A DNA stretch of 64,000 nucleotides from Protonemura montana (lineage: Eukaryota; Arthropoda; Insecta; Plecoptera; Nemouridae), in the NCBI GenBank assembly GCA_947568835.1, contig OX387610.1:14365001-14429000 (forward strand). Direction: 5' to 3'. Numbering within the stretch: the first letter of the stretch is position 1; every line of letters starts with the position of its first letter. Of the stretch, positions 12,263 to 58,349 are shown piece after piece. The notes under the pieces are model-generated. The model did not search any database. It saw nothing but the letters and a program-made list of their open reading frames with translations, and had not been told where the DNA came from. The position numbers and the translations under genes were made by a program.

Positions 12263-12269
12263 TGGAATG

Positions 12270-16814: not shown

Positions 16815-16949
16815 TTATTATTATGAACACTATAACCGTCTCAAAAATTGATGCCCAAAATGTCCCTGTTCAGGCATCAATTTTTGAGACGGTTATAGTG
16901 TTCATAATAATAAAATACCCCGAGCATTGCAAGCGTTTGCAATTTAAAT
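16815..16949. mobile_element. Perfect 41-bp inverted repeat: minimal form of the tRNA-head element
   Basis: Left arm 16815-16855 and right arm 16873-16913 are exact reverse complements, with a 17-nt loop. The arm sequence (GGCATCAATTTTTGAGACGG and onward) is the terminal arm of the elements at 35741 and 40770. The outer module TACCCCGAGCATTGC plus the palindromic AAGCGTTTGCAATTTAAAT follows on the right. No tRNA heads are present in this copy. Confidence 0.9.
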
Positions 16950-24277: not shown

Positions 24278-25263
24278 TCACCACAAATGAATATTAATTA
24301 ATTTTTGAACCAAAATAAAAAAGAAACTCCAATATCCAATCAAAACCTCCAGAAAAATGACTCTCAAACACAAAAACATCCAAAGCGAGACGAAATTGGA
24401 CCCACCAACCATCGGACGAAATCATCAAAGTTGTATTCATTTCCTTTTGAACTGAATACTTGTGCATGTTTGCAGCATTGCCAACAACAAATCGATTGCT
24501 TTGCAGACTCGAGTAATTGAAAGAGTTGCCGGTCGCCGCTCTGAATATTTATGCCTTGCTATATTCTCTTGCGCGAAAAGACGCGTCTGGCCGGGGCTGG
24601 CAAAACCAACTGAATACCAACTAGCGCCAGACAAACGCGCGACCCGCAAAGTTGCTCGGTTATTTTCACGGAATTAACAATAAAATGAGTGAAGAGACGG
24701 TGAAAGAAAGACGAGCACGAAGAGGCATTCTCAAAGTCGTATTAAAGCGCAACACAACTATCTGGGAAAGTCTATTCTCAGCAAAGAGCGAATGTGCGGG
24801 CTTTGCAGATGGTTGAAAAGAGAAGAGATGAAAGGGGGAATTAGAGGGAAGACAAATTGTGAGAGGAAATTAAATAGGAAATCGTTTGCAACAATGGTTT
24901 TGTATCGCTTTGCAGAGTGGGGGCGACACGGAACAAAGATGGCCGAGGAAGAGGAGCAAAGATGGTGTGGCAATGTACCTACATTCCGTTCAGCGGGAGA
25001 GCAAACCTTGCCCATAGAGGCGCCATCAGTAATTTTTAGAATGACAAAGGACGTCTAGCATTTAAAAAAAACACTCCCATTATTTAAGCTGATTTCTGTC
25101 ATTTTTCTTTAGAATTAGAATATGTTTTGTGCCAAGTTCATTTGTTTTTCGAGGTGTTTTCTACAAATTATAACAATCTTGAACATTATTTTGCAGACAT
25201 AATAAGCATTACAAAATCACGCTACAGAAATAATAACTGAAATTTTGTTCATGAGTTAAAAGC

Positions 25264-26283
25264 AATGCAGGGGACAGTCCTTGTGCTGGTATCTTCTCTC
25301 ACGGGCTGGACTGTAGCAATGCAGGGACAGTCCTTGTGCTGGTATCTTCTCTCACGGGCTAGACTGTAGCATTGCAGGGGACAGTCCTTGTGCTGGTATC
25401 TTCTCTCACGGGCTAGACTGTAGCAATGTAGGGGACAGTCCTTGTGCTGGTATCTTCTCTCACGGGCTAGACTGTAGCAATGCAGGGGACAGTCCTTGTG
25501 CCGGTATCTTCTCTCACAGGCTAGACTGTAGCAATGCTGGGGACAGTCCTTGTGCTGGTATCTTCTCTCACAGGCTAGACTGTAGCAATGCAGGGACAGT
25601 CCTTGTGCTGGTATCTTCTCTCACGGGCTAGACTGTAGCAATGCAGGGGACAGTCCTTGTGCTGGTATCTTCTCTCACGGGCAAGACTGTAGCAATGCAG
25701 GGGACAGTCCTTATGCTGGTATCTTCTCTCACGGGCTAGACTGTAGCAATGCAGGGGACAGTCCTTGTGCTGGTATCTTCTCTCACAGGCTAGACTGTAG
25801 CAATGCAGGGGACAGTCATTGTGCTGGTATCTTCTCTCACGGGCTAGACTGTAGCAATGCAGGGGACAGTCCTTGTGCTGGTATCTTCTCTCACGGGCTA
25901 GACTGTAGAAATGCAGGGGACAGTCCTTGTGCTGGTATCTTCTCTCACAGGCTAGACTGTAGCAATGCAGGGGACAGTCCTTGTCCTGGTATCTTCTCTC
26001 ACAGGCTAGACTGTAGCAATGCAGGGACAGTCCTTGTGCTGGTATCTTCTCTCACGGGCTAGACTTTAGCAATGCAGGGGACAGTCCTTGTGCTGGTATC
26101 TTCTCTCACGGGCTAGACTGTAGCAATGCAGGGGACAGTCCTTGTGCTGGTATCTTCTCTCACGGGCTAGACTGTAGCAATGCATGGGACAGTCCTTGTG
26201 CTGGTATCTTCTCTCACAGGCTAGACTGTGGCAATGCAGGGGACAGTCCTTGTGCTGGTATCTTCTCTCACGGGCTAGACTGT
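25264..26283. repeat. 54-bp minisatellite, about 19 units
   Basis: Unit: GTAGCAATGCAGGGGACAGT, CCTTGTGCTGGTATCTTCTC, TCACGGGCTAGACT. Variation is limited to scattered substitutions and a recurrent loss of one G in the GGGG run. The same unit forms a second array at 54386-54842 in the same orientation. Open frames arise because 54 is a multiple of three. Confidence 0.95.
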
Positions 26284-26694
26284 ACTCAGCTCTAATGGGC
26301 ATTCCTTGTCCTAGAATTAACATCGTGCTCGTCCAGCTCTAAGATTTCACCGAGGTGCTCTCAAGACGCCGCCGCTCAAAGTCTCAGCCGGATCTTAGCG
26401 AGGAGTTTCCAGATTCTTCCACCCAACAGAATTGCTAATGGTTGCTCTAACGATGACTTACAGGTGAAAACTAAGTTGCTCGGAACTTTGCTCGGAGGTT
26501 TCTAGCGGTGGACGGTTCTAGGTATTAGGTAATCATTTAAAATCACGCGGTGTTACTTGTGTTAGATTCGGCGAGACGTAATCGAGGTTAATTACCTGGT
26601 GTCGCCAGTGTTGACAATGTAACAATGGAAACATTTCTAACAAATTATTCTTGAATTTCAAATTACACCACTGTCCATTATAGAAGTTTTAATG

Positions 26695-27700
26695 TTAGAT
26701 TCAACGTTTGGTAGCCATGGAGATGCTGAGATCGCCTGACGGAGCTTCTCAATTCTGCTATCTTATGTTACCACGGGTATATCTTGGCCTAGCATAGGAG
26801 GTTCCATGGTAGATTCAACATTTGGTAGCCATGGAGATGCTGAGATCACCTGGCAGAGCTTTTCAATTCTGCTATGTTATGTTACCACGGGTATATCATG
26901 GCCTAGCATAGGAGGTTCAATGGTAGATTCAACGTTTGGTAGCCATGGAGATGCTGAGATCGCCTGACAGAGCTTCTCAATTCTGCTCTCTTATGTTACC
27001 ACGGGTATATCATGGTCTAGCATATGAGGTTCAATGGTAGATTCAACTTTTGGTAGCCATAGAGATGCTGAGATCGCCTGACAGAGCTTCTCAATTCTGC
27101 TATCTTATGTTACCACGGGTATATCATGGCCTAGCATAGGAGGTTCAATGGTAGATTCAACGTTTGGTAGCCATGGAGATGCTGAGATCGCCTGACAGAG
27201 CGTCTCAATTATGCTATCTTATGTTACCACGGGTATATCTTGGCCTAGCATAGGAGGTTCAATGGTAGATTCAACATTTGGTAGCCATGGAGATGCTGAG
27301 ATCACCTGGCAGAGCTTTTCAATTCTGCTATGTTATGTTACCACGGGTATATCATGGCCTAGCATAGGAGGTTCAATGGTAGATTCAACGTTTGGTAGCC
27401 ATGGAGATGCTGAGATCGCCTGACAGAGCTTCTCAATTCTGCTCTCTTATGTTACCACGGGTATATCATGGTCTAGCATATGAGGTTCAATGGTAGATTC
27501 AACTTTTGGTAGCCATGGAGATGCTGAGATCGCCTGACAGAGCTTCTCAATTCTGCTATCTTATGTTACCACGGGTATATCATGGCCTAGCATATGAGGT
27601 TCAATGGTAGATTCAACTTTTGGTAGCCATGGAGATGCAGAGATCACCTGACAGAGCTTCTCAATTCTGCTTTCTTATATTACCACGGGTATATCTAAGC
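26695..27700. repeat. 114-bp tandem repeat, about nine units
   Basis: Unit contains GTAGATTCAACGTTTGGTAG, CCATGGAGATGCTGAGATCG, TTACCACGGGTATATCATGG; copies start 114 bp apart (26811, 26925, 27039 and onward). A higher-order pattern is visible: four-unit blocks share the same variants, for example ATCACCTGGCAGAGCTTTTC at 26846 and 27301. The same unit occurs reversed at 33084-33546. Confidence 0.95.
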
Positions 27701-28185: not shown

Positions 28186-28880
28186 GCTTAACGACGCACT
28201 GTTTTGACAACGGGCCATGTGGCGTTGGTGAAATTGCGTTGGTGAATGAGTGGATGATGATGAGGATGATGATGATGATGATGAGGATGATGATGATGAA
28301 ACCGGTGCTAGCACGTAGTCTGTTCATGTCAAAGTGCACCAAAGGGACCATTGGCTTAATGTCCCTTCGGAAGGACGGTACAACGCGAACAACAGGATTC
28401 CTCCACAAATCCATGCTGTCGAGAGGTTGATAAGCAAGGCGAGTGAAGTTGCTGTACTAACTTTCATCCCTCCACATCCCTCCAACCTCTCTCCCGAACA
28501 GAACTGGTCATGTGTATGATGGCCACCCATCCAATACCTGACCCAGCGCAGTGTTGCTTAACTTTCATCCCTCCAACCTCTCTCCCGAACAGAACTGGTC
28601 ATGTGTATGATGGTCACCCATCCAATACCTGACCCAGCGCAGTGTTGCTTAACTTTCATCCCTCCAACCTCTCTCCCGAACAGAACTGGTCATGTGTATG
28701 ATGGCCACTCATCCAATACCTGACCCAGCGCAGTGTTGCTTAACTTTCATCCCTCCAACCTCTCTCCCGAACAGAACTGGTCATGTGTATGATGGTCACC
28801 CATCCAATACGTGACCCAGCGCAGTGTTGCTTAACTTCGGTGATCTCACATGAACCGGTGTTTCCAACACGCCAAACCGT
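28186..28880 (-). mobile_element. 5S-derived element, reversed, four to five heads
   Basis: From left to right: reversed 3' tail (TTAACGACGCACTGTTTTGA), a (GATGAT)n stretch, reversed body (CCTTCGGAAGG), 91-bp head units, and the complete 5S-like start ending CACGCCAAACCG at 28880. Confidence 0.88.
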
Positions 28881-29078
28881 TTAGTCAATTAAATACGATA
28901 AATGTTCCAATTGAAGTTTTAGAAATGAGTGTTATTTGTGTGTTGAAGAAGTGGAGCTAACTAATGTGAAGCTAACTGAACAAACGGGCGAGACTTCAGC
29001 GCTGAACAAAACTATACGTCAATGCCATTCATTTCAAGATCCACGCACAGCCAAGACATAAAGTATCGCAAGGGAACG

Positions 29079-31105: not shown

Positions 31106-31163
31106 CTGAACAGGAACGGTTCAGCGTTAGAAACAAGCTGGTATATGTCATTGATTGATTATT

Positions 31164-31408
31164 AGGGTTTAACGACGCACTGTTTGGCACTAGTCTAATG
31201 GCGTCGGTGAATGAGTGAATGGTGATGAAACTCTCTTCCGAACAGAACTGGTTATGTGTATGATGGTCACCCATCCAATACCGGACTCAACACAGTGTTG
31301 CTTAACTTTCATCCCTCCAACCTCTCTCCCGAACAGAACTAGTCATGTGTATGATGGTCACTCATCCAATACCTGACCCAGCGCAGTGTTGCTTAACGTC
31401 AGTGATCA
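31164..31408 (-). mobile_element. 5S-derived element, reversed, internally deleted
   Basis: Reversed tail (TTAACGACGCACTGTTTGGC) joins directly to two reversed head units (CCAATACCGGACTCAACACA, GTGTTGCTTAAC). The body with GGGACGTTAAG is missing. Confidence 0.8.
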
Positions 31409-32025: not shown

Positions 32026-32272
32026 AACACCCGCGATAGGTGGAGATCGGGGTACAAGTAGCTCAATTATTTAGAGCAACACCCGCGACAGGTGGAGATC
32101 AGGGTTTAAGTAGCTCAATGGGTTAGAGCAATACCCGCGACAGGTGGCGATCGGGGTTCAAGTAGCTCAATTAGTTAGAGCAACACCCGCGACAGGTGGA
32201 GATCGGGGTCCGAGTCCTCGTTTAGGCATCAATTTTTGAGACTGTTATAGTGTTCATAATAATCAAATTGCT
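32026..32272 (+). mobile_element. tRNA-head element, truncated, four head units
   Basis: 52-bp units with AAGTAGCTCAATTGGTTAGA-type A boxes, followed by CGGGGTCCGAGTCCTCGTTT and the terminal arm GGCATCAATTTTTGAGACTG. The left inverted arm is absent. Confidence 0.8.
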
Positions 32273-33002
32273 TGCATTAGTTGTCAAAAAGAAATGTCCC
32301 GTGCATTCACATCTGACAAAGCAAATAAAAAGCTGTTCACATCATAAAACGAGGTGATACAAGCAACGAAGCTGTCAACAAACTGAACGCTTGTTCCGTG
32401 AACGTGTCGCAAAGGTCAGCAATGCACAGGGAACTAAAAAAAGGATGTGATTATTTTCAAGCAAAAACTCTTGTAATGATGGAAAACTTCACAATGTTCT
32501 TCTCAATTAAGGTGAAAAGGTCACCGTTGCACATTGTTAAAATGCCATGAACTAATTTCCTAGAGTGACGTTGCAAATGTAAATTTAATTAATTAGACAT
32601 TCCAATTAAATGCGCTGGGTTTGTGCAAAGAAACTGTGCCTGTTTTGTGAAAATCACACTTTGCTTGCAGCTCTCAAAGGTGTCGGTCGAATGAAACTTT
32701 CACAGAGAATATGTATTCCTATGTATATTAATGTACATTATTAGACTTGTCTCTATGCTCCTGCATTATGTGTCATAATATGTACAAAGAGTTTTTTCTT
32801 CAGAAAAATAGAAATAAAGGAACAATTACAATTCATAACTTAGTGAAGACCGTTACAAGCAAAGAACAAAACAAATTACGCTATTTTTTAGCAGTTACCA
32901 TCAGGACAGTGGCTAGATATAAATATTGCCAAAACAGTGCGTCGTTAAACACCACAAATCAAAGATCAATACATATATAAGATATGGATCATGTGAAGTC
33001 TG

Positions 33003-33083
33003 ATTTAAATTGCAAACGCTTGCAATGCGCGGGGTATTTTATCATAAGGAAACACTGCTACCATCTCAAAATTTGATTTTTGG
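33003..33083 (-). mobile_element. Outer module of tRNA-head element next to 114-bp array
   Basis: ATTTAAATTGCAAACGCTTG, CAATGCGCGGGGTATTTTAT and a decayed arm (ACCATCTCAAAATTTGATTT). It directly precedes the 114-bp tandem array, suggesting that array also belongs to a mobile unit. Confidence 0.65.
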
Positions 33084-33546
33084 CACTTTGAACCTCCTAT
33101 GCTAGGTCATGATTTACCCGTGGTAACATAAGATAGCAGAATTGAGAAGCTCTGTCAGGCGATCTCAGCATCTCCATGGCTACCAAACGTTGAATCTACC
33201 ATTGAACCTTCTATGCTAGGCCATGATATACCCGTGGTAACATAAGATAACAGAATTGAGAAGCTCTGTCAGGCGATCTCAGCATCTCCATGGCTACCAA
33301 AAGTTGAATCTACCATTGAACCTCCTATGCTAGGCCATGATATACCCGTGGTAACATAAGATAGCAGAATTGAGAAGCTCTGTCAGGCGATCTCAGCATC
33401 TCCATGGCTACCAAACGTTGAATCTACCATTGAACCTCCTATGCTAGGCTATGATATACCCGTGGTAACATAAGATAGCAGAATTGAGAAGCTCTGTCAG
33501 GCTATCTCAGCATCTCCATGGCTACCACACGTTGAATCTATTATTG
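33084..33546. repeat. 114-bp tandem repeat, four units, reversed
   Basis: Reverse complement of the unit in the array at 26695-27700 (CCGTGGTAACATAAGATAGC, GCGATCTCAGCATCTCCATG). It ends 25 bp from the iRhom exon 1 splice donor. Confidence 0.95.
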
Positions 33547-33571
33547 AACAGAGAAAAAAAAAGAAACTCAC

Positions 33572-33856: not shown

Positions 33857-34840
33857 CTGCAATAGGAAGAAAGAAAATGTGTTATTATTTGGATTGCTTA
33901 CCTTAGATAGGGTAATTCAACTGGAATTTGGCGTGCAAAAATGTAATGAAATATTTTTTTCGATACATAGAATATAAAAAAATATATACATATCATTTTA
34001 AGTATCTCCTGAACGCAGCCCGCAGAGCAAACTACTCGGCACCTCCACCAGCACATACGGTAATAGTAGGTATGTACATAGGTACACAGGTACATAGTAG
34101 GTACGGTAAGTGCCAAATATCTCAGGTCCAGAAAAGTAATGTCCGGATAAAAATATGTCTTGCGCTTAAGATGAAAATTAAAACATTTCATTGGCTGTAA
34201 CCATAGAGATGAGTAATTAAGTGGCAGATATATTTTCATATATTCATTGTAATTTGGCCAATCAGTCGAAAATTCGACAATTATGTGAAACCGTAAAAGT
34301 TTTCATCAAATTTCGTACAACAATAAAGCTAATATTTGACTCAATTACACCTGACTGCTTTCCTCAAAGCTACTGAACCCAACAGCCGCCTTTGATGCAA
34401 TATCCAATCAATAAAACCGTGTATTTTAGGTTATGTATCCAACAAAGTCATTGTCCAGCCCCTGAACGCAGCCCGCAGAGCAAAGTGGCACCTCCACTGT
34501 CAATCACAGCTGAAAGTTCAACGACTCTTGGTTCAAGCCCCACGTAGCTCGGGTTAACGTCTGCTAATGAAACGGGAAGAAATCATATAAAATATCTCTG
34601 AAATTACCTGAGCTCTCAGCACTAACATGTCATTGAACTACTGTTATAAAGAAGTAAATGTAGGTAACTATAGGTAACTTTTTCAACAGCTTCTGTAATT
34701 AATTTCTTAGATCCCAGACGAAGCAGCTGAGTTTAATCACTTTTAGCGAAACGTCTTTCCAGGATAGTGAAATAAGATGGCAATTTCATATCGAATTCGA
34801 GGTCAACTAGGAGAGAGACAGGTACCAGGATTATTATTTT
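33857..34840. other. Upstream intron: tRNA-like relics only
   Basis: Two copies of CTGAACGCAGCCCGCAGAGC occur at 34010 and 34461, the second followed by GGTTCAAGCCCC, a B-box-like motif. No coding exon seen. Confidence 0.4.
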
Positions 34841-35144
34841 TGGTGTTTAACGACGCACTGTTTTGACATCTGGCCATGCGGCACTGGTCTAATGGCGTCG
34901 GGGAATGAGTGGATGATGATGAACCTAACCTAGCCTAAAAGGGAGGAGGGGAAACCCGGTGCCCGGTGGAGGTTGATAAGCAAGGCGAGTGAAGTTGATG
35001 TACTAACTTTCATCCCTCCAACCTCTCTCCCAAACAGAACTGGTCATGTGTATAATGGTCACCCATTCAATACCTGACTCAGCGCAGTGTTGCTTAACTT
35101 AGGTGATCTAACGAGAACCGGTGTTTCCAACATGCCAAACCGTT
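34841..35144 (-). mobile_element. 5S-derived element, reversed, one head
   Basis: Reversed tail, short body remnant and one head unit with a complete 5S-like start (TAACGAGAACCGGTGTTTCC). The central body is deleted. Confidence 0.82.
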
Positions 35145-35740
35145 CAGTAAAGGTATCAGGAATCGCCTGTCGAAACGGCAAATAATCAAACGAGACCGGG
35201 GCTATTTGCAGCAGCTCTTTGAGTCTGATATCCGTGAGAGGGAAATAATTAGATTGTGTTCCCTGTTTTAATATTCGTCGAGAGATGTGAAAGGGGAACG
35301 GCAGAGTAAAGTGCAAGAAAGGCGGCGTTGTACACAATAGAATAATAGCTCTGAGAGAGACAGAGGCGAGGCGAAATATGAGCTAGGGTTAAAGAATTTC
35401 TGGAGGTAATTTCGTCGACTTCTTGGATGCTGGTAAGCAATAATGGTGTTCGCGACTTTTATTATTTTCCGAAACGGTAAAAGAGGAAACGAGACAAGAA
35501 AGGCAGGAAATTCGGCACGAGGAGGAGGAATTTTGTTTGGTTATCAAATATAGTGTCTTCCTATCTCGTCTTGGTTATTCGATGCTTTTATTGGAGCTTC
35601 CAGGTAAATGGGGATGAAGTTACCAGTGCGATACGTGGAGATGGAATTGTAGGTCGAACTGGTGAGAGATTGTTGAACTTGATGTTTTAAATTTCAATTC
35701 TCTGTTGCTGGTTAAATGATGTGTATATTTCCAACAGCTT

Positions 35741-36430
35741 ATTTAAATTGCAAACGCTTGCAATGCGCGGGGTATTTTTATTATTAACAACACTATAACC
35801 GTCTCGAAAATTGATGCCCAAACGCGGTCTCGAACCCCGATCTCCACCTGTCGCGGGTGTTGCTCTAACCAATTGAGCTACTTGGACCCCGATCTCCACC
35901 TATCGCGGGAGTTGCTCTAACAAATTGAGCTACTTGGACCCCGATCTCCACCTGTCGCGGGTGTTGTCTAACCAATTGAGCTACTTGGACCCCGATCTCC
36001 ACCTGTCTCGGGTGTTTCTCTAACCAATTGAGCTACTTGGACCCCGATCTCCACCTGTCGCGGGTGTTTCTCTAACCAATTGAGCTACTTGGACCCCGAT
36101 CTCCACCTGTCGCGGGTGTTTCTCTAACCAATTGAGCTACTTGGACCCCGATCTCCACCTGTCGCGGGTGTTGCTCTGAACCATTGAGCTATTTGGACCC
36201 CGATCTCCACCTGTCGCGGGTGTTGCTCTAACCAATTGAGCTATTTGGACCCCGATCTCCACCTATCGCGTGTGTTTCTCTGAACTATTGAGCTATTTGA
36301 ACAGTGGCTTTTGAGACGATTCTAGTGTCTTTGAGCATCCACCAATGCTCCGCGACAGGTGGAGATCGGGATTCGAGTCCGCGTTTGGGCATCAATTTTT
36401 GAGACGGTTATAGTGTTGATAATAATAAAA
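35741..36430 (-). mobile_element. tRNA-head element with inverted terminal arms, eight to nine heads
   Basis: Left: outer module (ATTTAAATTGCAAACGCTTG), arm (AACACTATAACCGTCTCGAA), then a reversed B box (CTCGAACCCCG) and reversed 52-bp heads (CACCTGTCGCGGGTGTTGCT, CTAACCAATTGAGCTACTTG). Right: a forward partial head with GGGATTCGAGTCC and the forward arm GGCATCAATTTTTGAGACGG. Both outer arms therefore face each other as inverted repeats of about 40 bp. Confidence 0.88.
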
Positions 36431-38655
36431 AGCTCAGAATGGTATTTTGTTTCGGTGGATAACGATTCTTGTGGTATTGTGCAGTACTTTATTTTAAATT
36501 GTTTGGTCATGTGGTCGTAGAGCCGTGGGTAGATCTTGAAGTTAGTGTCGGACTTGATTTGTTGTAATCTGTGATCTTAAAAATGATCCAAAAAATCAAA
36601 CGTCTGTTGTTTGAAAATTTTTAAGCATTTCTGTTAGGGACAGAAAAATCATTTAATATATATATATATTTTTTTTTTTTTTTTGCCCGTTTTGACAACA
36701 ATTTTTGAGACGGTTATAGTGGTTATAATATTAAAACCATATAAAATATTTTCTCATCTGAGAAACACGGTACAATCTTGGAATATTTCCGTTTCGACTT
36801 TCAAAACGACTTGTTAACCCATTTCTTAGCTGTGTACAAGAAAAGTGAATTGCTTTCAGCGCTAAAGTGGACGCTAAAAATAGGTACAATTGTAAGAATT
36901 TGATAAAGATACAAAAAAAAACTTATGTAATGTTAAAGAGCAATATTTGATGAAAGCTGCATTTAATTCCCACATCGAATCACGATTACAACATGGCATA
37001 CGCATAAAGAAAAGTCCCCTCTGCCCTGGGAGACGAGTGACTGGGCACATTTCATTGTTTTCAACACGCAGTGCACGTCAGAATATGAAACAAAAACACA
37101 ATTCCTTTTGTGTAAAACGCGAATAACGCGAATAACGCGAATACATACGCCGCGACCGATTGCCGGCATTTACGCGACGTTGCGTCAAAAACGTTGGCGA
37201 CTAATTAAAAGTTTTCGGCGTCGAGGGAGGCGTCGGTTGGTGGCGTCGGTTGGTGGCAGGCGTCGCTCGGAGTAGCGACCGCCGCTCTCTGGATGGCGGA
37301 ACCAAATTCCTGGGAGCGAAGTACTTTTTCGTATCTTGTACTTTGCTAATATTATGATTGGACGGCGTGAAATGTAGTTTTCTGTTTTATGAATATTGTC
37401 TTGGCTTGTTTTTTTGGGATCAGTTTTTCAAACAAATAATAACTGTCTGTTAAAGATTCGTCTCCATGGTGACAGACAACCGGATACTTTTACTTGCTTA
37501 ACTTCCAGTTAATTTTTTAATTGAAAATTGTAAAAATTGGCCTTGCGGTTTCTATTCGTTTATTGCCCGGTATTACAATTTAAGTGGGAGTTAAATTTAT
37601 TGCCATAGCAAAAACCAATCACAAGCAGTGAAAATCAGCTGTTTCTGAGAGTTAGGAGCTTAACTCAGAGTTAAAAATATTGTTATACAAGTTTAGAAAG
37701 TTGCCATGAAACTAAATAAGCATTGAGATATTTTTTTTTTTTTTTTAAAAGATTTACAAAAGCAAAATAATTGAAAATTCCATAAAATTAGCAATGATGA
37801 TTCTTTAATTTATTCATTCTTAAATGACTCTTCTCAAGTATAAATAACAGTAATTATTTCACGGAGACAATTATAAGATCTCTGTCACTCATCCCTTATG
37901 TTCAATGCTCCCAGCAAATACACTTAAAAACCAGCGCAATTCTAACCGGTTATTATTAACAAACAGCTGTTCGTTAAAACCTAGAAGCAGAAATAATTTC
38001 CCAGCTGAATCGCTCCCACGCATGTCTCTACCTTCAAGATAAACACATAGATATACGCATAATGCGTGAGGTATTCGCATCATATATCAAGCTTGTGCAC
38101 GATAAGGGTGTAGCTCACGGGACTGGCAAAGGGGTGCGTTACGTGAACTGGATTTAGTTTAATTGACAAACAAATAGGATGAACGTGTGCGTCTGAGTCG
38201 AATGATAATGATTATATAATCGCATTGCTATCCAATGTTTACTTTGCAAGTAGGTAAGCTGCTTAAAACTTGGTGGTGACGTGCATTGATTTCAGTAGTG
38301 CTCAACTAAATCTTGTTGAATACGAATATACAGTAAAAAATGTCAAGATATCTTAAGGGAAAAGACCTCAATTTGGAATAAAAAACTATTAATATAAATG
38401 TTATGATTTTTAACTTATTTTATCAGAGAATTTCTGATCGAACGTTCAAGTAATAATTCCTGAATTTCAATAAGTTTTTTTAATAAATAAACTTAGGAAC
38501 AACAGAGTTACTTTTTCGATATATTTTCTCTGCTTGCCAAAATGATCCCGCATTTATTTTCTTATTTTTTTATATAATTTCATGATATCTCTGGAAGATT
38601 TGCTGGATTTCCCGACAATTTCACTCTCATTTTGTGACTTACTCTCCCTGAGAAT
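36431..38655. other. Noncoding region
   Basis: An isolated arm of the tRNA-head element lies near 36700. A GC-rich patch at 37185-37310 repeats GCGTCGGTTGGTGG. A diverged relative of the MITE at 30298 begins at about 37565 (GCCCGGTATTACAATTTAAG). No exon can be supported. Confidence 0.4.
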
Positions 38656-39298
38656 ATCAAATAACCTAGATAGAGCATAGGATCCAGCCAGCTGATCTCA
38701 AATAACATGGATAGAGCATAGGATCCAGCCAGCTGATCTCAAATAACCTGGATAGAGCATAGGATCCAGCCAGCTGATCTCAAATAACCTGGATAGAGCA
38801 TAGGATCCAGCCAGCTGATCTCAAATAACCTGGATAGAGCATAGGATCCAGCCAGCTGATCTCAAATAACCTGGATAGAGCATAGGATCCAGCCAGCTGA
38901 TCTCAAATAAAATGGATAGAGCATAGGATCCAGCCAGCTGATCTCAAATAACCTGGATAGAGCATAGGATCCAGTCAGCTGATCTCAAATAACCTGGATA
39001 GAGCATAGGATCCAGCCAGCTGATCTCGAATAACCTGGATAGAGCATAGGAACCAGTCAGCTGATCTCAAATAACCTGGATAGAGCATAGGATCCAGTCA
39101 GCTGATCTCAAATAACCTGGATAGAGCATAGGATCCAGCCAGCTGATCTCAAATAACCTGGACAGAGCATAGGATCCAGCCAGCTGATCTCAAATAACCT
39201 GGATAGAGCATAGGATCCAGCCAGCTGATCTCAAATAACCTGGATAGAGCATAGGATCCAGCCAGCTGATCTCAAATAACCTGGATAGAGCATAGGAA
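38656..39298. repeat. 41-bp minisatellite, about 16 units
   Basis: Unit: GGATCCAGCCAGCTGATCTC, AAATAACCTGGATAGAGCATA. Most units are identical; variants are mainly C to T at the second CC of CCAGCC. The most homogeneous array in the window. Confidence 0.95.
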
Positions 39299-39720
39299 CT
39301 GCAGTCTGTTGGTCAAAATTCAAGGAAGGCATTCATTGTTGAGCTATACAGAATTCGAGTCAAATAAACAAAAAAAGTTAAAAATAAAATGCAGGGATCC
39401 TTTTCCTTAAAACTAAGTACAGACTTTAATCGATTTTACTAAAAGTGCAGGTCTATTAAATTTGTTGAGTAGTACAGGATATTGAAAAAGGTCAAGAGAT
39501 CTCAAAAGTAATCAATTCGGAGGAAACGGTGCCGCCAGACGAGTTCAATGTGCCACTTGAACGAACTTGATTACTTTTTCTTCGTCTAATGGAACGTGTA
39601 TTCACTTTTACGACCCCGAGCTCACAACGTGCCAGAGTCTCATCGAACCTAAACTAAAATACAACTTAAGAATATCGCGTTGATAACATTTTGACTCGAT
39701 CAAAATTGGAATCAACAACA

Positions 39721-40345
39721 CGGTTTGGCGTCTCATCGGTCCTCGTGAGATCACAGACGTTAAGCAACACTGCGCTGGGACAGGTATTGGATGGGTGACC
39801 ATCATACACATGACCAGTTCTGTTCGGGAGAGAGATTGGAGGGATGTAAGTTAAGCAACACTGCGCTGGGTCAGGTATTGGATGGGTGGCCATCATACAC
39901 ATGACTAGTTCTGTTCGGGAGAGAGATTGGAGGGATGTAAGTTAAGCAACACTGCGCTGGGTCAGGTATTGGATGGGTGACCATCATACACATGACTAGT
40001 TCTGTTCGGGAGAGAGTTTGAAGAGATGAAAGTTAAGCAACACTGCGCTGGGTCAAGTATTGGATGGGTGACCATCATACACATGACCAGTTCTGTTCGG
40101 GAGAGAGGTTGGAGGGATGAAAGTTAGTACAGCAACTTCACTCGCCTTGCTTATCAACCTCTCGACAGCATGGATTTGTGGAGGAATCCTGTTATTCGCG
40201 TTGTACCGTCCTTCGGAAGGGACGTTAAGCCAGTGGTCAGGAGTAGGCTACGTGCCGGCACCGGGTAGCCCTCCTTCCTTCTAAGCTAGGCTAGGTGTAT
40301 CACCAACTCCTTAAAGTGCGTCGTTAAACACAACAAATCAATAAT
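39721..40345 (+). mobile_element. 5S-derived element, full 3' end
   Basis: Complete start (CGGTTTGGCGTCTCATCGGT), five head units, body (CCTTCGGAAGGGACGTTAAG) and the terminal AAAGTGCGTCGTTAAACACA, CAACAAATCAATAAT. A short AATCAAT-type end suggests LINE-style 3' recognition. Confidence 0.85.
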
Positions 40346-40769
40346 ATTGCGTGGTTAAAAATCCCAAAACTGGTACAAGGAGAGATCGTTATCAGAAATC
40401 GTATCGAATACCACTTATTTTCGATCCTATTTAGATGGTAATTCTGATCCAGCATTAACGCGGCTCAATGAAGCCAATTATTTTTTAATTAACCCTCTCG
40501 AACCTAAAGTTTCATGCAAGCATAATCAATATGACGTGTAATACGATTAGCGTTGACCCTGGATGACCCGAAGTTAGTTCAGCACGAAGTTAATTATCGA
40601 AAGTTGGCAACCCTTGCAACGCCATATTGCACGGATAGTCAGTGGCGCACTCTAGGGACGGAATTCTGCAACACTTTGACACCGAAATCTGGGTATCAGT
40701 CACCCGATGGCGCTTGTGATCATCTTTTTATTAACAAACCTTTACAATTAAATGATTATCGATACATTT

Positions 40770-41318
40770 TTATTATTATGAACACTAAAATAGTCTCAAA
40801 AAGCCGGTGTTCAAGTAGCTCAATTGGTTAGAGCAACACCCGCAAAAGGTGGAGATCAGGGTCCAAGTAGCTCAATTGGTTAGAGCAACACCCGCGATAG
40901 GTGGAGATCGGGGTCCAAGTAGCTCAATTGGTTAGAGCAACACCCGCAAAAGGTGGAGATCAGGGTCCAAGTAGCTCAATTGGTTAGAGCAACACCCGCG
41001 ATAGGTGGAGATCGGGGTCCAAGTAGCTCAATTGGTTAGAGCAACACCCGCGACAGGTGGAGATCGGGGTCCAAGTAGCTCAATTGGTTAGAGCAACACC
41101 CGCGACAGGTGGATATCGGGGTCCAAGTAGCTCAATTGGTTAGAGCAACACCCGCGACAGGTGGAGATCGGGGTCCAAGTAGCTTAATTGGTTAGAGCGA
41201 CACCCGCGACAGGTGGAGATCGGGGTTCGAGTCCCCGTTTGGGCATCAATTTTTGAGACGTTTCTAGAGTTCACAATAAGAAAATACCCCGCGCATTGCA
41301 AGCGTTTGCAATTTAAAT
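40770..41318 (+). mobile_element. tRNA-head element with inverted arms, eight heads
   Basis: Left reversed arm (TATTATTATGAACACTAAAA), then 52-bp heads (AAGTAGCTCAATTGGTTAGA, GCAACACCCGCGACAGGTGG), the last followed by GGGGTTCGAGTCCCCGTTTG, the forward arm and the outer module (CCCCGCGCATTGCAAGCG). The last head plus B box folds as a tRNA: GTCCAAG pairs with TTTGGGC, and GGGG with CCCC. Confidence 0.9.
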
Positions 41319-41440
41319 CAAAATATAATCTAAATTATCGCGATACATGTTTATCAATCGTTGAGGTTAGCATTAATAAAGAATAATTGAGTGTAAACCA
41401 GTCTCAAATGCGAGTAATCTGCGAAAATTACTTACTTTTA
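41319..41440 (+). mobile_element. Fragment of family with CAATCGTTGAGGTTAGC
   Basis: TACATGTTTATCAATCGTTG, AGGTTAGCATTAATAAAG, AGTGTAAACCAGTCTCAAAT are shared with 45465-45550 and, reversed, with 58440-58530. Confidence 0.7.
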
Positions 41441-42207
41441 TAATTTCTGTGAGTCTGTTTTATACCAACTAGCATTGTCGCCGGTTAAATTTTAACATCA
41501 GCATCTTTCAACTCAATGCATCTTCAGGTTTATAAGGAACCAGATGGTTGCATGTCCAACACAAAAATGTTTTGTTAAAGCTGCATTCAGAGAAAAGCGA
41601 CTCTAATGGACCGCCACTGCTCCAATCTAGGGGTTGTTTGGGATGGGAAATGGAGGGTGGGTATTTTGAGGGTGGGTATTTTAGGGATGGGTTGCAGAGC
41701 AGGTAACTCGTTTACCCGGCTAGCAGGCTTCATGGCAACGGTGGCAGTAATTCGTGTTAAAACTGTACGGCACGGCACCGAGCTGAACATCTAATCTCAT
41801 TTCATACACAATACGATGGGTGAACGGCTTATTTCTATTCCAAACAAGTGTTTATTTGTGTTTGTTTTGCTATTTCACTTGTCGTTTCGGTTAAATATGT
41901 ATTATTTTCTGTCGGACGGGCGTCAATGCATGTTTTACAAATCGTAAATGCTTAACGGTTTTAGTTTCTGGTATTGATTTGGTGAAGGAAATGTCAATAA
42001 TTTCAGCGATATTTGTTTTGCACTTTGGCCAAACTTTGGCAATCGGCAAACGGTGCCACGAAAAGTGGATGAAAAGTTTAAGGCGAATGAAATATATTTT
42101 CAAAATGATTAAATTCCCGAAACGTCATAAGGTTCTTTTGTATGCGAGAACAGAGTCACAATATCTGCTTTTAAAACTGTCTTTTAGTTCACGTATGTTG
42201 GTATTAG

Positions 42208-42630
42208 CGTTGAGTGTAGGTTCTAGGTAGAGAAACAACGTCAATGTTACAGTCTCTGCGTGAAAGATGGCCGCCAAATGACTACCTTACCGACAAAAAT
42301 GCAGAGTACCGGACAATCACGTAAAGTGGAGCCACTGTCGTTTGAATTTTAATTTCGATATTTCTCGTTGGTTAACTTGCTTTTGAGACTTTTCATGCTC
42401 AAAAAATCTCCATCAATGTTAACCTCAACGATTGATATACACGTAACGATATTAAAAAGCGAGTAACCTACGAGAAATATCGAAATTAAATTTCATACGA
42501 CAGTGGCTCCACTTAACGTGACGTTCCGGTACTCTGCATTTTTGTCGGTAAGGTAGTCATTTGGCGGCCATCTTTCACGTAGAGACTGTAACAATGACGT
42601 TGTTTCTCTACCTAGAACCTACACTCAACG
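42208..42630. mobile_element. 423-bp fold-back element, copy 1
   Basis: Terminal arms of about 175 bp are inverted: left CGTTGAGTGTAGGTTCTAGG, right CCTAGAACCTACACTCAACG. A central loop of about 70 bp separates them. Flanks are GTATTAG (42201-42207) and GTATTAC (42631-42637), a near-perfect 7-bp duplication. Non-coding; could form a long hairpin or cruciform. Confidence 0.88.
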
Positions 42631-43998
42631 GTATTACGGTAATCACTGTGACTTGAATGCGACTGGAGATAAAACAGCTGGTCGGAACCTCACGTCATAC
42701 TGACAGAAGCGAATAATAAAGCTTGTCAAATCGACACAAATTCACAGCTGGCAAAGGTTACGCCAAAGATTATGAGACAAAGGCTGTCAGAATTCACGGC
42801 TCAATCTGAGAGTGCGTGCGAATGAAAGGAAAAACTGCAAACAGATGGGCGTTTTACTTGTAGCGGCTAGGAAGAGAAATTCTCAGACGTTGCAAATTCC
42901 TGAACCCCTAGACTTTGAGATAGAAATCTTAATAAAACCCGGTTTTCCGATTCACGTACGGGAAGAAGAAGAAGAAGAAGAAGAAAAACCAAGAACAACT
43001 TTCTGTGTTTGCAAAATAACACAAAACTTTTACAAAATACCTGCGGGCTGAAATTGTATTGGTAAAAATGCGTTTTTTCCGTTGTTGTCGTCGCTACGGT
43101 AACATCTTGCAGCACGTTGCAAATGTAGAGAAATGAAATATGTATTCCCCCTTTTTTTTCACTCAATTTCCAGTTCACCGGGTTGAAATTTCAATTGCCA
43201 CACGCACGCATGCCATTACTGCATTTGACATACACTGATTACTCGGCTAATTACACGGATTTGATAAATGAATTACCAAAAACGAGATACAATATCGATT
43301 ACAAATTACTGATATTTTACGGTATCTAAAGATTTGCTAGAATAGCGTCGAACGAAACGGCGCACAACCATTTCACCGAGAGAAATTCTATAAAAGCGGT
43401 CAAAAACATCCATTCTCCATATCTCCTTGAAACGTACTTGACCCGTCTGGTCTTATCCTCTAAACGTGAAGACATCTTGAGGTTACCCCTCACCCGACCC
43501 CGCGGCAAAGTGGACACAAACCCTTTCAAGTTACCCGCCCATTCCGGAGCCATTTCCCTTTGTACCAGCAGATGGGGACGAGAACCCTTACCCAGTTTAC
43601 GAGCACAAACCCGTCTTGTCTAGGTTATATTTAGGCTTGAAATCTATCTCCTTTGACCACAAGGGTTGAATAACGTGATTGTTTCACGCTGCTAGGCTTC
43701 GGATCTCTTGAAATTAATGTAACGGTCGATGATCTGGTTGTTTTTAATTGAAATGTCGAGCACAAAGCCTACATTTCTGTGTCGGCCAATTATGTGGCTG
43801 TTGGGAAATAACGTGATATCGCATTAAATTTGGAATGGGATTTTCGTTGATGTCTGAGGGGAATCGAGTCTTGACAGTTTGACCTTAATTGTGTGGCAGT
43901 AGAGTTTAGGTTGTTTTCACATATTAGCGAATCGGATGATCTCCATCGAGAGATTATGGTGTATCCCAAAAACTTCTGTGCGATTAATTGGCAATTAG
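42631..43998. other. Noncoding region
   Basis: A (GAA)n run lies at 42963-42984. I see no exon or repeat element that I can support in the rest. Confidence 0.4.
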
Positions 43999-44905: not shown

Positions 44906-45165
44906 ACCAGTCCTCACCCCTTGCCATCAGGAAAACCCCGACAATCTGATTGAAATTCAAAGCAAAACATTTGTTTATGAAGTTCAATCAATCAATTCTG
45001 ACAGCTGACAAGTTTCAGAAGTTAACATTGACTTCAACAAATGCGTGAACAAAAGCTTAACTCGATGTTGGATCTCGACGAACATGAGTTTTGGGAATAC
45101 ACTATATCTCATAATTTTATCACAAAGAAGTGATGCCAAAAATCAACGTAAAATTGAAAGTGTAA

Positions 45166-45680
45166 ACTTTCTGCTGAGCAAACGAGGCCGGCAACACGTG
45201 GTAACGGTAGGTGCCACCCGATGGCACTTTCTGCTGAGTAAACGAGGCCGGCAACACGTGGTAACGGTAGGTGCCACCCGATGGCGCTTGCTGCTGAGCA
45301 AACGAGGCCGGCAACACGTGGTAACGGTAGGTGCCACCCGATGGCGCTTGCTGCTGAGCAAACGAGACCGGCAACACGTGGTAACGGTAGGTGCCACCCG
45401 ATGGCGCTTGCTGCCGTTCTTTTTAACAAATCTCTACAATTAAATAATAACGACTCAAAATATCGTGATACATGTTTATCAATCGTTGAGGTTAGCATTA
45501 ATAAAGATTAATTGAGTGTAAACCAGACTCAAATGCGAGTAATCTGCGAGAAATAACGAAAAGAAATTTCTTAACACTCGAAGCGACGGTGTCTCCACCT
45601 GGCGGCATCTTACATTTTTGTCGCAGTAAAAGCAGTCATTTGGCGGTCATTTTTTATTGCAGACAGTTTAATGTTACATA
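45166..45680 (+). mobile_element. Element with four 60-bp units and a unique right part
   Basis: CTGCTGAGCAAACGAGGCCG, GCAACACGTGGTAACGGTAG, GTGCCACCCGATGGCGCTTG repeats every 60 bp (45181, 45241, 45301, 45361). It then continues with CAATCGTTGAGGTTAGC and CGACGGTGTCTCCACCTGGC. The right part and one 60-bp-unit fragment recur reversed at 58350-58620. Confidence 0.8.
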
Positions 45681-46654
45681 CGTAACTACAATATTTTTTA
45701 AGTCGCTTGCCATCGCGTCTCAAATCTTCTTGTCAACAATTTCTGAAATAATGGTAAAGACGACCCACAGCTGAGCTATGATTAACATCGTGGATTATTT
45801 GAGGGCAAAACTGAACTCTAACCGCAACATTTCGCAAAGCGCTAGAAATTGTCGCCAACCCCGAGCTGGGATTCCCCCTCAGATGCTGGTTTTAATCCAA
45901 GATGTAAGTCAGGGGATCGAGTGCTCTGTTCGCCAGAGCTCGGTCTCGCCAAAGAGAATAAGGTGAGACAGATTGGAGGCTTCTTTGTCCTCTGTAAACC
46001 GCACCCCCTTAAGACAAAGAGAATCGATTTGTACGAGCTTGGCCTCCTTTATGACAAGCAACCCCCAGCCATCGAGACTCGTTTTTCAATTTCAATGGAA
46101 ACAGAAAAGTTCGGTCTTGAAAGATTTATTTTCGTTCGGAAATCTCCGCACCGAGTTTTTGATTTCTGAAAGAGCTGAATTTTTTAAATGTATTCAGAAA
46201 TATTTTTAAGTAGATGTGAAGGAAAAAATGAAAGAGGATGAAATTTAAAAAAATCTGCTTGTGATATTGATTGGAAACTGTTTCGTTCTCGATGCGGTAT
46301 GTTTTTTTAAGACCTGGTATTTAAGTGTGTAAGACGGAAAGTATGGTTCGGTAAAGATTTCTAGGGAAGGAACGGAACGAGTCGGCCGCTTCAGAGGCTG
46401 GGCATTGAATAAGCAATGAAGGGACGGAGCAAGAAGAAGTAATATGAAAAAGAAATGGAGGTGCATCTTTTGTCACGGTACGGCGTTCATAAAGTGTGAA
46501 AAACCTGCGTAGAGCGTAGTGATGGATATAATAATACAGCTACGCAGGGGGGAAAATATGGGCACAAAAAAACTCTTGAGTTTTTTAAGAAGAAAGGAAG
46601 TGGATTTCATTTGGTCTGCATTTAATTGCTGAAATTCGGGAATTGTATGAGTGG

Positions 46655-47009
46655 CTAGTTCTGTTCGGGAGAGAGGTTGGAGGGATGAAAGTTAAGCAAC
46701 ACTGCGCTGGGTCAGGTATTGGATGGGTGACCATCATACACATGACCAGTTCTGTTCGGGTGAGAGGTTGGAGGGATGAAAGTTAGTACAGCAACTTCAC
46801 TCGCCTTGCTTATCAACCTCTCGACAGCATGGATTTGTGGAGGAATCCTGTTGTTCGCGTTGTACCGTCCTTCGGAAGGGACGAGCCGGTGGTCCCCTTG
46901 GTCTTCCACAGGAGTATGGCTACGTGCCGGCACCGGGTTTCCCCTCCTTTCTAAGCTGAGTTAGGTTCATCATCATCCACTCATTCACCGACACCATCAA
47001 ACATGGCCC
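46655..47009 (+). mobile_element. 5S-derived element, 5'-truncated
   Basis: Begins inside a head unit (CTAGTTCTGTTCGGGAGAGA), has one more head, the body with a short deletion of the GTTAA in GGGACGTTAAGCC, and the 3' tail. Confidence 0.85.
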
Positions 47010-50000
47010 ACTTATCAATAATGAAAATGTTGGGCAGACTTTAGTATCACGAGACGTGTTGGTGAAAAAAATGGGTGCAAACTACCGTAGAAAAATCAAG
47101 TTGTTTTTATAAGATCATCGAAAAAAAAACGGATAAGAATGAAACTTTTTTTTCTCGAGCCACTTTGAAAACGTCTTTTAAAAAAGAAGTGTCGTCCTTT
47201 TTTTTTTGTTTCCCCCCGAGACCGTGTCACTAACTCCATTAACAAAGGCACTATGTTAGTGAGAAATACGTCTACGATCCAATACAAGATTTCTCTGTTG
47301 ATTAGCCAAATAATCAGCAACAATATGACTTGCCGGAGAGCTTTTCCTTTCCGCTACATCTCAGAAACACAAGACGTGAAGCTCTACCAAAGTTTGTGTC
47401 GAGTTTTTCCCGAGGAAAATGGATGGCAGCGAACAGATCGACGAGTTTTCCGACGCATGTTTGTTTGCATGTACGTGGTTAGCTCTATGAGATGTGTCAC
47501 AGAACTTGACGGCGACTTCGCGCAAGAAAAGCGTCCATAAAGTAGATTTCCCCAGAGGAAAAACTATCGTCGCTGACGTGGATATGCACTATACAGCGGG
47601 AAAATGAATGAAAATTGATTCAATTTGTTTAGAAAATGCATCTCCATTGTGAAATGATAGAGAAGTTTTTATTGTTTTTATTTTTTGATATTTTATATAT
47701 GTATTTGAAAAATCATCCATGAAAAGTTGATGTAATATTATGATTGAAAGTCATATTGTTTCTAGTAACATGAAATATATAATAAAAAAATGATTATCAC
47801 ATAGCTTACAAAAACAGTAATACTTGCATGTTATGGAAAGCATATGCCAGACCATGCAACATGGAAAACCATGCACATAGCTATAAATTATCGCCGCGAA
47901 GAAGCGTCAGGATGAAAAATAACAAAGTTCTGGACACATAAATCAAGATTGAATATAAGTATATTGTTATCGGCTCATATTGAGGTCGTTCAGGCAAAAC
48001 GAAATAATAGCTAGAAATCCAATTCGTTCTTTTAAACAAATATATCTATTCGAAAACTGACACAACACGCAAAATAAATCTCTGTCATTATTAGAGTGTA
48101 CCTACCATCGAGTGTTACCGATATCTACTAGAATACAATGAATCGAAGTATTATAAAATTAAAACTTGGCGCTTTTGTCGTGAAATCCGCGATAAATTCA
48201 AACTTTTGTAATATGGAAATAGGTCGGTTTGTTCGATGTAACGTCATGCTGGGTAATTAGAATTGCAATTGATGTAATTGGGTCAGTAAACTGGTGGTAA
48301 TTAGTATGGTTCGATGAGGATGCTTTAGTTGAAACCCACCTGCTTGCTTCAGTTTGCTAATTAGCTCGGTGATTATGTAACTACGTTGTACAATGTTCGA
48401 TTACTTACCGTGCCAGTTATATGACAGCCATTTTGGATTTTTAAATTTTGTGGAATTTTTTTTGTCAGCTGATGGCTAGCCTGTTTCCCTTCTGTTTTGT
48501 TTAGTTGTAACGGCTATATCATAGAGCTAATATTAGCTTCGCCGCATTGCCGCTAGTCATCGCTAGTGGGCAAACGATGAAGATTTATTTTGAATTCTCT
48601 TTGACACTCGCAACTTTTATCATACTTTCCCTCAGTGAATATTATTGCTTAATTGACAAAAACGCATTGCTCTGATTGTTATGGCGACCAAGTGCAGTCA
48701 AAATTACATATTTTTAGATCCAATTGCTTGGTTTTATTCGAGTCATATGTAAAAACGAACAAATTTGAGAGCGAATCGATGTACAATTTAAAAAAAATCA
48801 AGAAAATTCTTTATTAAAAAAAAGTATTTTTTTTAATTCACAAGTAATAGGACTTACACCGTAGAAAAAAAGGTAAACAAAAATTAGTAGATGCTATTAG
48901 TAAAAGAAGTAAAAAATTGTTTTTCTTTCCGTTGTGTCCAGTATTTTTTTCATGCTTTCCATTCAAGACACATTACTGCATTTTGTATTTGTATTTTCTG
49001 TTAAAGGACAATGCCTTGATTTATATGACCAACGACCTGTTAAGGGTCACGCCACAAAGCCAATACACAATGTCCAATCAATGTTTCAAAGTTTTAGACA
49101 ATAAACACACATTTGATAAATTAGATAGTTTGCCGTTTACTACTTATTGAACCTGTCTAAATGCTTTTATAGCTTTCCATAAGCCCAATTTAACTGTTAC
49201 CGATATATAATCGATTTCAAAGCTTGAACGCGAGATTAAAACGTCGCGTAATTACCCGAACAAACTCGCACAAAAAGACGATACGTTACAAAAACAACAA
49301 AAAAACAGCAAGTTTTTAAAGTCAAGAGAAAACAAACCAATCCCGATCTAGAGGAAAGCTACAGGACACAAGAAATAAATCAAACAAATCCCCTATTGAC
49401 AAAAACTATTTGAAGTGGATTTCCCATTTAGTTGAAATCATATTTAAATTGCAAAAGCTTGCAATGCGCAGGTTTTTCCCCTTATTTGTTGGTAACTACA
49501 ATGACGTTGTAATAAATACAAACAGATTCGCTCTTTCTACCAATTATCCATTAAGTGTGATTATCCATTACAGAACTCGGCTATATCCTTGTGCAATTTC
49601 TCTAGCAAAAGCCTGGGGAAATCAAGGAAATCCAAGGTAAGGCGTCGTGTGATAGCAATCAAAACGAATGGCTAGTCTGACCGTAATTGTCCCCGGGCAG
49701 GAAATCGACCGATATTTTAACTGGAATTGGCCACTTGTGTATTAATGTTAAACTCGTGCATATTTGAATGCCCCAGACACCATATGATAATGCACTCATA
49801 TTGGACGAATCAATTCGATCAGTTCTTTAATGCAGATATGTAGACCTGCGGAGCATGCATTACTACAAGCAATGGATCTATAGTTGTTTTACCGATTTAA
49901 AATTAGCGGTCGTTTCTGTGCATTGCTGACCTATTTTCGCGGGTAATCTGCGATGATTTCGCGGAGAACTCTGCGAGCTTTGTTCCTGTCTCGAGTGCTA

Positions 50001-51950: not shown

Positions 51951-52373
51951 CGTTGAGTGTAGGTTCTAGGTAGAGTTTCAACGTCAATGTTACAGTCTCT
52001 GCGTGAAAGATGGCCGCCAAATGACTACCTTACCGACAAAAATGCAGAGTACCGGAACATCACGTTAAGTGGAGCCACTGTCGTATGAAATTTAATTTCG
52101 ATATTTCTCGTAGGTTAACTCGCTTTAGAGACTTTTCATGCTCAAAAAATCACCAACAATGTTTACCTCAACGATTGATATACACGTAACGATATTCATA
52201 AGCGAGTAACCTACTATAAATATCGAAATTAAATTCCATACGACAGTGGCTCCACTTAACGTGATGTTCCGGTACTCTGCATTTTTGTCGGTAAGGTAGT
52301 CATTTGGCGGCCATCTTTCACGCAGAGACTGTAACATTGACGTTGTTTCTCTACCTAGAACCTACACTCAACG
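51951..52373. mobile_element. 423-bp fold-back element, copy 2
   Basis: Same length and ends as copy 1. Flanked by perfect ACCAAAG duplications at 51944-51950 and 52374-52380. Loop region includes TTTACCTCAACGATTGATAT, a sequence also found in the 41319 and 45465 elements, which suggests shared origin. Confidence 0.92.
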
Positions 52374-54385: not shown

Positions 54386-54842
54386 GGTCTCTCACGGGCT
54401 AGACTGTAGCAATGCAGGGGACAGTCCTTGTGCTGGTATCTTCTCTCACGGGCTAGACTGTAGCAATGCAGGGGACAGTCCTTGTGCTGGTGGTATCTTC
54501 TCTCACAGGCTGGACTGTAGCAATGCAGGGGATAGTCCTTGTGCTGGTATCTTCTCTCACAGGCTAGACTGTAGCAATGCAGGGGACAGTCCTTGTGCTG
54601 GTATCTTCTCTCACGGGCTAGACTGTAGCAATGCAGGGGACAGTCCTTGTGATGGTATCTTCTCTCACGAGCTAGACTGTAGCAATGCTGGGGACAGTCC
54701 TTGTGCTGGTATCTTCTCTCACGGGCTAGACTGTAGCAATGCAGGGACAGTCCTTGTGCTGGTATATTCTCTCACGGGCTAGACTGTAGCAATGCTGGGG
54801 ATGGTCCTTGTGCTGGTATCTTCTCTCACGGGCTAGACTGTA
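54386..54842. repeat. 54-bp minisatellite, about eight units (second array)
   Basis: Same unit and orientation as 25264-26283. Both arrays stop at the same point in the unit (CTAGACTGTA), after which flanks differ. The 151-codon open frame across it is an artefact. Confidence 0.95.
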
Positions 54843-58195: not shown

Positions 58196-58349
58196 TCATT
58201 CATTTCACCTCAAACCACTAAAGTATTAAAATTATAGTTTACCAAAATAACGTTGCAATTCTTCTGGTTTCAGGGGTTTCAGGGAATTTTATTTATTTCT
58301 GTAAGAGCATTTCTAGCTTTGAATTAGTTAAAAGTCTAAGCGCTAATGT

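Follow-up and report, generated by a model that had tools for sequence, protein, structure and literature searches.

Multiplied tRNA-derived heads between inverted arms: a putative SINE-like repeat with a hairpin 3′ module in Protonemura montana

The analyzed DNA is a stretch of 64,000 nucleotides from Protonemura montana (Plecoptera, Nemouridae; assembly GCA_947568835.1, contig OX387610.1, positions 14,365,001 to 14,429,000 of the forward strand), referred to as the window. All copies, counts and comparisons come from this single 64-kb window, and positions are counted from its first letter. Short dispersed tandem arrays are abundant in it, and the tandem-repeat scan listed 36 rows of them, some overlapping. 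Two of the arrays form the centre of a repeat element in which the 5′ part of a tRNA is multiplied. Copy A is located at 35741-36431 on the reverse strand and copy B at 40768-41334 on the forward strand, and both follow the order left arm, heads, tRNA, right arm and 3′ module. Five further loci hold parts of the element: a truncated third copy (C), a 3′ module beside an unrelated 114-bp array (D), two fragments (E and G) and a head-less copy (F). None of these five had been noticed in the preliminary description of the locus, which was made from the sequence alone.

The 52-bp tRNA 5′ unit occurs nine times in tandem in A, with one unit shortened to 51 bp, and eight times in B. The tandem-repeat scan gave 9.0 units with 94% match for A (35834-36299) and 8.1 units with 95% match for B (40805-41226); counting by unit anchors again resulted in nine and eight, as the preliminary description had it. 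In B, the left inverted arm (40768-40802) is followed by seven 52-bp head units carrying an A box without a B box (40812-41175; repeat scan, unit anchors and box scan), by a last, complete tRNA-like unit with both boxes (41173-41245), by the right arm (41250-41284), which is complementary to the left one, and by the 3′ module (41284-41334). In A, read on the reverse strand, an outer left arm (36350-36431) and a truncated inner left arm (36297-36328) precede eight head units, seven of 52 bp and one of 51 bp (35885-36299; repeat scan and unit anchors), the complete tRNA-like last unit (35815-35887), the right arm together with the tRNA 3′ half (35775-35856) and the 3′ module (35741-35776; pattern scan and similarity). 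The left joint, consisting of the arm, GCC, TGTTCAA and the tRNA, is shared by both copies. Copy C (32026-32267, forward strand; repeat scan, Rfam and similarity) comprises three full units and a partial one, a tRNA-like unit at 32156-32228 and the right arm, and has no 3′ module.

The exact A box TAGCTCAATTGG was found by exact-pattern scan in seven of the eight units of B and in six of the nine units of A; for these units, the perfect A box described earlier holds. A B-box-like site with at most one mismatch is confined to the last unit (GGTTCGAGTCC in B and GGTTCGAGACC in A). The Rfam tRNA model, with a gathering score of 29, likewise matches the last unit only, with 47 bits in B, 37.2 bits in A and 31.3 bits in C, and ARAGORN calls the same two last units of A and B as tRNA (anticodon CGA in B). 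The earlier statement that the B box and a complete tRNA are found in the end unit alone is thereby borne out. In folding, the last tRNA unit is barely more stable than shuffled sequences (z -1.35). With its many A boxes and single B box, such an array lends itself naturally to testing start choice by RNA polymerase III (pol III).

The inverted arms, described earlier as about 40 bp long, are real, but their actual lengths are 35 nt with 83% complementarity in B (40768-40802 against 41250-41284) and 82 nt with 95% in A (35775-35856 against 36350-36431). The module with the palindrome TTGCAAGCGTTTGCAA, which had been thought to frame both copies, is found at the 3′ end only. The palindrome is exact in A (35748-35763) and B and recurs at 16927 and 33010. 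In B, the module reads ATACCCCGCGC, a hairpin with a 7-bp stem (41295-41312) and TTTAAAT...ATCTAAA, with the least certainty for its final 20 bases. The order ...ATACCCCGCGC-ATTGCAAGCGTTTGCAAT-TTAAAT is common to five places (A, B, D, E and F), E being altered in the loop and ahead of the hairpin. The hairpin stem is identical in all five and thus without covariation, and the module with its hairpin was no more stable than shuffled sequences (z -0.47). Beyond TTTAAAT, GATTTCAWCTAAA is common to E and F; the sequence of B diverges more, D retains the first part only and A has none of it. Due to the likeness of E and F, the end of the element was placed near ATCTAAA rather than at TTTAAAT, which brings it directly up to the junction repeat.

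Among the additional loci, F (16815-16966, forward strand) is a head-less fold-back copy with a 41-bp perfect stem and the 3′ module, recognized by similarity, complementarity and folding. Its stem has a fold z-score of -14.1, and chance is excluded for this stem as well as for the 52-bp arrays. D (33001-33077, reverse strand) consists of a divergent arm and the same 3′ module, together 83% similar over 77 columns, and adjoins a 114-bp array at 33088-33549. The 114-bp unit forms a second array at 26680-27695, and only the one at D adjoins the 3′ module of the tRNA element. E (49427-49486, reverse strand) is a fragment with the 3′ module and G (36686-36736, forward strand) a solo right arm, both identified by similarity; G, like C, has the arm and lacks the 3′ module. 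Since the arms occur without heads in F, the module occurs with another array in D and the arm occurs without the module in C and G, arm, heads and 3′ module are separable. The preliminary description had stated that arms independent of the satellite would speak against a single element, and F and D show such independence in part.

The left arms of A, B and F all start in the same T run, which is two to five bases long and complementary to the right-arm run AATAATAAAAA, and none of them includes the 3′ module. At the B and F loci, one T of this run could be part of the target duplication. The inner left arm of A is 85% similar to the left arm of B over 33 columns, and the two share three bases that are seen in none of the nine other rows of the alignment, although two of these bases are adjacent columns beside an indel and the count is alignment-dependent. 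These shared bases suggest that the arm common to both copies was inherited. The outer left arm of A, which includes the inverted tRNA 3′ half and has the B-like left-arm remnant inside it, shares two bases, both G, only with the right arm of A (six and nine other rows are lettered there), which makes A itself its probable source. The two arms of F are identical over 41 nt; its arm is near most of the other rows, so the identity alone gives no date.

The insertion junctions were compared with 60,000 random AT-matched pairs of 20-mers taken outside the masked listed repeats, which make up 24% of the window. The head-less copy F is flanked by a direct repeat of 14 of 14 bases (AGTTCTAAAATAGT; 16801-16814 and 16967-16980), 13 of them inside the scored 20-mers, and three of the 60,000 random pairs scored as high. 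In a scan of about 1 kb upstream (1.2 kb for F), the F repeat reached 14.0 against a mean null maximum of 8.2 (standard deviation 1.1), five standard deviations above. Copy B is flanked by a putative duplication (TTATCGATACAT at 40756-40767 and TTATCGCGATACAT at 41335-41348), in which TTATCG--ATACAT matches the right copy at 12 positions with a 2-base gap; 107 of the 60,000 pairs scored as high. B is located inside another repeat, and a related copy of this host repeat at 45.45 kb spans the site with the target present once. A more diverged copy at 58.5 kb also spans the site, the target being barely recognizable there. The host repeat family was observed at 40690-41430, 45150-45640 and 58344-58613, and its 45-kb copy contains a 60-bp array. 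On balance, the junctions favour target-primed insertion, with F as the strong case and B as a supportive one.

In A and B, the arrays begin at GTTCAA(G/A) and finish at GTTCGAG of the T loop, and the unit joint is bordered by microhomology of GTTCAAGT at the tRNA start with GTTCGAGT in the T loop. An exchange between these two sites yields the joint as it is seen as well as a B box in one unit only. Among the 20 units of the 52-bp set from three loci, the mean distance was 0.060 within and 0.076 between loci (label-shuffle P 0.018), and the first and third units of B are identical, as are the second and fourth, which corresponds to a 104-bp duplication. Neighbouring units, tested in arrays of four or more units, were more alike than in shuffled order (P 0.063, two of three loci). 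The arrays therefore seem to change locally, locus by locus. The microhomology and the unit variation by locus support amplification of the slippage type, as proposed earlier.

We interpret the element as a non-autonomous SINE-like (SINE, short interspersed element) retroposon inserted by target-primed reverse transcription, a reading to which slightly more than an even chance is given. A tRNA-derived unit carrying both boxes would stand upstream of a 3′ module (the arm, the 7-bp hairpin and ...ATTTCATCTAAA) that would act as the tail recognized by a partner reverse transcriptase of the LINE type (LINE, long interspersed element). The head may have grown into the 52-bp array via slippage, on DNA or cDNA, or unequal exchange between the near-identical 8-mers GTTCAAGT and GTTCGAGT; the unit at the 3′ end would then remain a complete tRNA, however many A-box-only heads precede it, and later change would proceed at each locus separately. 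The inverted left arm may be a back-to-front copy of the element's own tail, produced by an event resembling twin priming, or by a snap-back, that started at the internal AATAATAAAAA run; priming of a T-rich target end on this internal A-run would give the start point of the arm. A and B would have inherited this arm, with a new one arising in A and perhaps also in F. Rather than a new class of transposon, the element seems to be a variant of known SINE-type elements of the kind that become small satellites. From the mixture of SINE and DNA-transposon features proposed in the preliminary description, the tRNA-derived multiplied heads and the inverted arms remain; the mixture itself is weakened by the 12-14-bp junction repeats of B and F and by an arm that corresponds to the element's inverted tail.

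Several observations weigh against this retroposon interpretation. A run of four or five T starts 4 nt past the tRNA in A, B and C (in B a T5 run at 41250-41254, a candidate pol III terminator), and the heads of A and B begin only after the inverted arm, so the 5′ end is not the pol III start. An ordinary pol III transcript would consequently miss both the left arm and the 3′ module. Pol III RNA alone thus cannot account for the mobility, and the mobile RNA, if there is one, would be a read-through or an RNA polymerase II transcript; this counts against a plain SINE. No reverse transcriptase was found in the five open reading frames (ORFs) put to Pfam; the partner was not sought otherwise. Junction repeats were found at two of seven loci (F, and more weakly B), and the other five are silent. 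For B, the upstream scan was weaker, with 8.0 against a null maximum of 7.0 (standard deviation 1.0), one standard deviation above. For A, it gave 8.0 against a mean null maximum of 9.1, and no junction repeat was detected with either of its two possible left ends. Chance was not beaten for C (7.0 vs. 8.4), D (8.5 vs. 8.4) and E (8.5 vs. 8.2), and the value for G (9.5 vs. 7.7) is weak and AT-rich. Furthermore, the left flank of B is about 12 bp shorter than its 45-kb paralogue, and the BLAST match of the right flank to this paralogue extends weakly back to TTAAAT (41313), which makes the exact 3′ end of B uncertain and the empty site inexact.

The anatomy moreover closely resembles that of HINE elements, and a Helentron-associated (HINE/pearl) rolling-circle DNA transposon that captured a tRNA sequence as its array unit was considered as an alternative, possible but rather unlikely, and kept in play mainly because of the pol III problem, which vanishes if RNA is not needed. 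The left end of the element has a T-run, the arms are inverted, about 50 nt separate the right arm from the 3′ end and about 22 nt the hairpin, and one right end is combined with different arrays (52 bp in A and B, 114 bp in D). This is much as in two reports on HINEs, which give 11-13 bp for the subterminal inverted repeats and further describe a 3′ palindrome, arrays in the centre and T-rich insertion sites (PMC7492417; PMC4067079), and short arrays are also recorded for pearl-family elements of bivalves (PMC5139131). The five loci without a convincing junction repeat suit such a transposon as well. According to PMC7492417, however, HINEs make no target duplication, yet a duplication is present here, strongly at F and more weakly at B, and the arms are much longer here (35-82 nt) and the array unit is a tRNA head. 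The element combines a HINE-like anatomy with a retroposon-like insertion in F and probably in B. Helentron-like anatomy alone is no proof of rolling-circle transposition, and target duplications need to be checked in such elements.

The remaining explanations are less probable. Given as unlikely is a wider form of the retroposon interpretation, in which a superfamily defined by the hairpin 3′ module would carry different tandem bodies (tRNA heads or the 114-bp unit), would be mobilized by an RNA from a source other than its own pol III promoter and would owe both the head multiplication and the inverted 5′ arm to jumping of the reverse transcriptase during insertion; if true, this would be a retroposon converging on the anatomy of Helentrons. 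A Penelope-related or retrozyme-like retroposon, forming tandem units and inverted 5′ pieces via RNA circles or a Penelope-type reverse transcriptase, has little probability. The non-LTR (LTR, long terminal repeat) retrozymes of animals are, according to PMC7229834, short tandem arrays whose target duplications, when present, exceed 4 bp, and Penelope-like elements are proposed there as their mobilizers; but the 11 Rfam matches that the window gave up to E=1 included no hammerhead family, and the sole match of a loose regular expression for the hammerhead core lies outside the element (41443-41528, reverse strand), so that the retrozyme candidate was rejected. Slimmer still is the chance of independent pieces, that is, a simple tRNA-derived satellite beside unrelated inverted-repeat fragments. 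The incomplete C, E and G, the arms without heads in F and the 3′ module with another array in D would fit it, but A and B share the left joint and the right-hand order of tRNA, arm and 3′ module, and in B the array, the arms and the 3′ module all lie within one junction repeat, on which ground a simple satellite was rejected. The least credible alternative is a DNA transposon with terminal inverted repeats (a miniature inverted-repeat element or a fold-back type) that carries a tRNA gene: F is a fold-back and further fold-backs are found in the window, but the 3′ module is on one side only, and cut-and-paste superfamilies are not known to make target duplications as long as the 12-14 bp observed.

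Among known systems, the SINE-like retroposon interpretation finds its closest likeness in the squamate SINE-derived satellites sSat1-3, in which SINE parts stand in tandem and the terminal unit is extended (Vassetzky et al., 2023; PMC10702118). Here as there, part of a tRNA-type SINE is repeated a few to many times, a longer terminal unit reaches the SINE end, and the unit variants alternate and are homogenized. The present element qualifies as a SINE only in part, and its copies in the window, F being head-less, included no plain single-headed SINE of the family. The element and the genome are different, and the fold-back 5′ arm, the hairpin 3′ module and a unit that consists of the 5′ head up to the T loop set the present element apart from what is given there. 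The conversion of SINEs to satellites would thus extend beyond the squamates of that report. In dimeric and multimeric SINEs such as Alu and Dip, as cited in the same report, up to eight SINE units stand in tandem, but whole units are repeated there and a 52-bp part here. The terminal-repeat retrotransposons in miniature Helenus and Ajax, according to PMC10886601, also have small-RNA promoters (tRNA or 5S) in a non-SINE frame, with LTRs and 4-5-bp duplications, whereas no LTR-like direct end repeat was seen here. The non-LTR retrozymes (PMC7229834) resemble the element in their short tandem arrays, some with target duplications, and differ in the hammerhead ribozyme, not found here by Rfam up to E=1. 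No multi-headed tRNA SINE with inverted arms was among the top-ranked matches of the open-access literature, which is weak evidence of novelty. Exact-pattern scans of viral, bacterial and archaeal contigs revealed no copy; these collections are without animal genomes and uninformative on copy number.

The window also contains a 5S-rRNA-derived repeat at eight loci (11743-12254, 23324-24278, 28198-28884, 31151-31407, 34835-35148, 39712-40330, 46652-47002 and 55532-56357), with 2, 7, 4, 2, 1, 4, 1 and 6 copies, respectively, of a 91-bp unit that reaches from inside the 5S part into the body. Four of the eight loci exceed the Rfam 5S score (near 11.7, 23.3, 28.8 and 35.1 kb) and the rest were identified by similarity. 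Rfam gave a fifth 5S match with a score under the cut-off, at 12231-12339, which corresponds to an inverted head; it lies at the other end of the copy at 11743-12339, whose 69-nt arms are 84% complementary, and forms a second fold-back beside a pol III-type head. Most of the eight loci have a common tail, which we take to be Meta-domain-like, after the name of a mollusc SINE tail; a literature search for it gave passing mentions only. Of five 5S copies tried for junction repeats, the one at 35 kb has a weak one (10 of 11, null fraction 0.019) and four have none, and the repeat is accordingly termed SINE-like. In the 91-bp set (27 units, eight loci), the mean distance was 0.056 within and 0.070 between loci (P 0.073), a weaker locus effect than in the 52-bp set; an effect of first, middle or last position gave P 0.090, and neighbouring units were more alike than in shuffled order (P 0.005, four of eight loci). 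As the 5S repeat is tandemized too, tandem pol III heads are not peculiar to the tRNA element. With unrelated tRNA and 5S heads both tandemized in one 64-kb window, head multiplication as a habit of a genome becomes testable.

Further features were observed in the window. A 54-bp unit forms two arrays, at 25261-26284 (19 copies) and 54388-54842 (8.4 copies), for which no shared flanks were noticed by eye. A pair of fold-backs of one family, at 42201-42637 and 51951-52373, has arms of 167-174 nt and an 89-nt loop, and a sub-threshold Rfam match to MIR7504 (42346-42492) inside the first palindrome is probably spurious. Two ORFs, one near 31 kb and the other near 33.6 kb, share the strand of the rhomboid ORF described next and resemble additional exons, although Pfam gave no match for them. 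The ORF at 9368-9952 on the reverse strand is an exon of an inactive rhomboid (iRhom), with matches to PDB chain 9o58_B (E 1.6e-38) and to Pfam Rhomboid (1.4e-13), and it is our guess that the arrays lie in introns of this gene.

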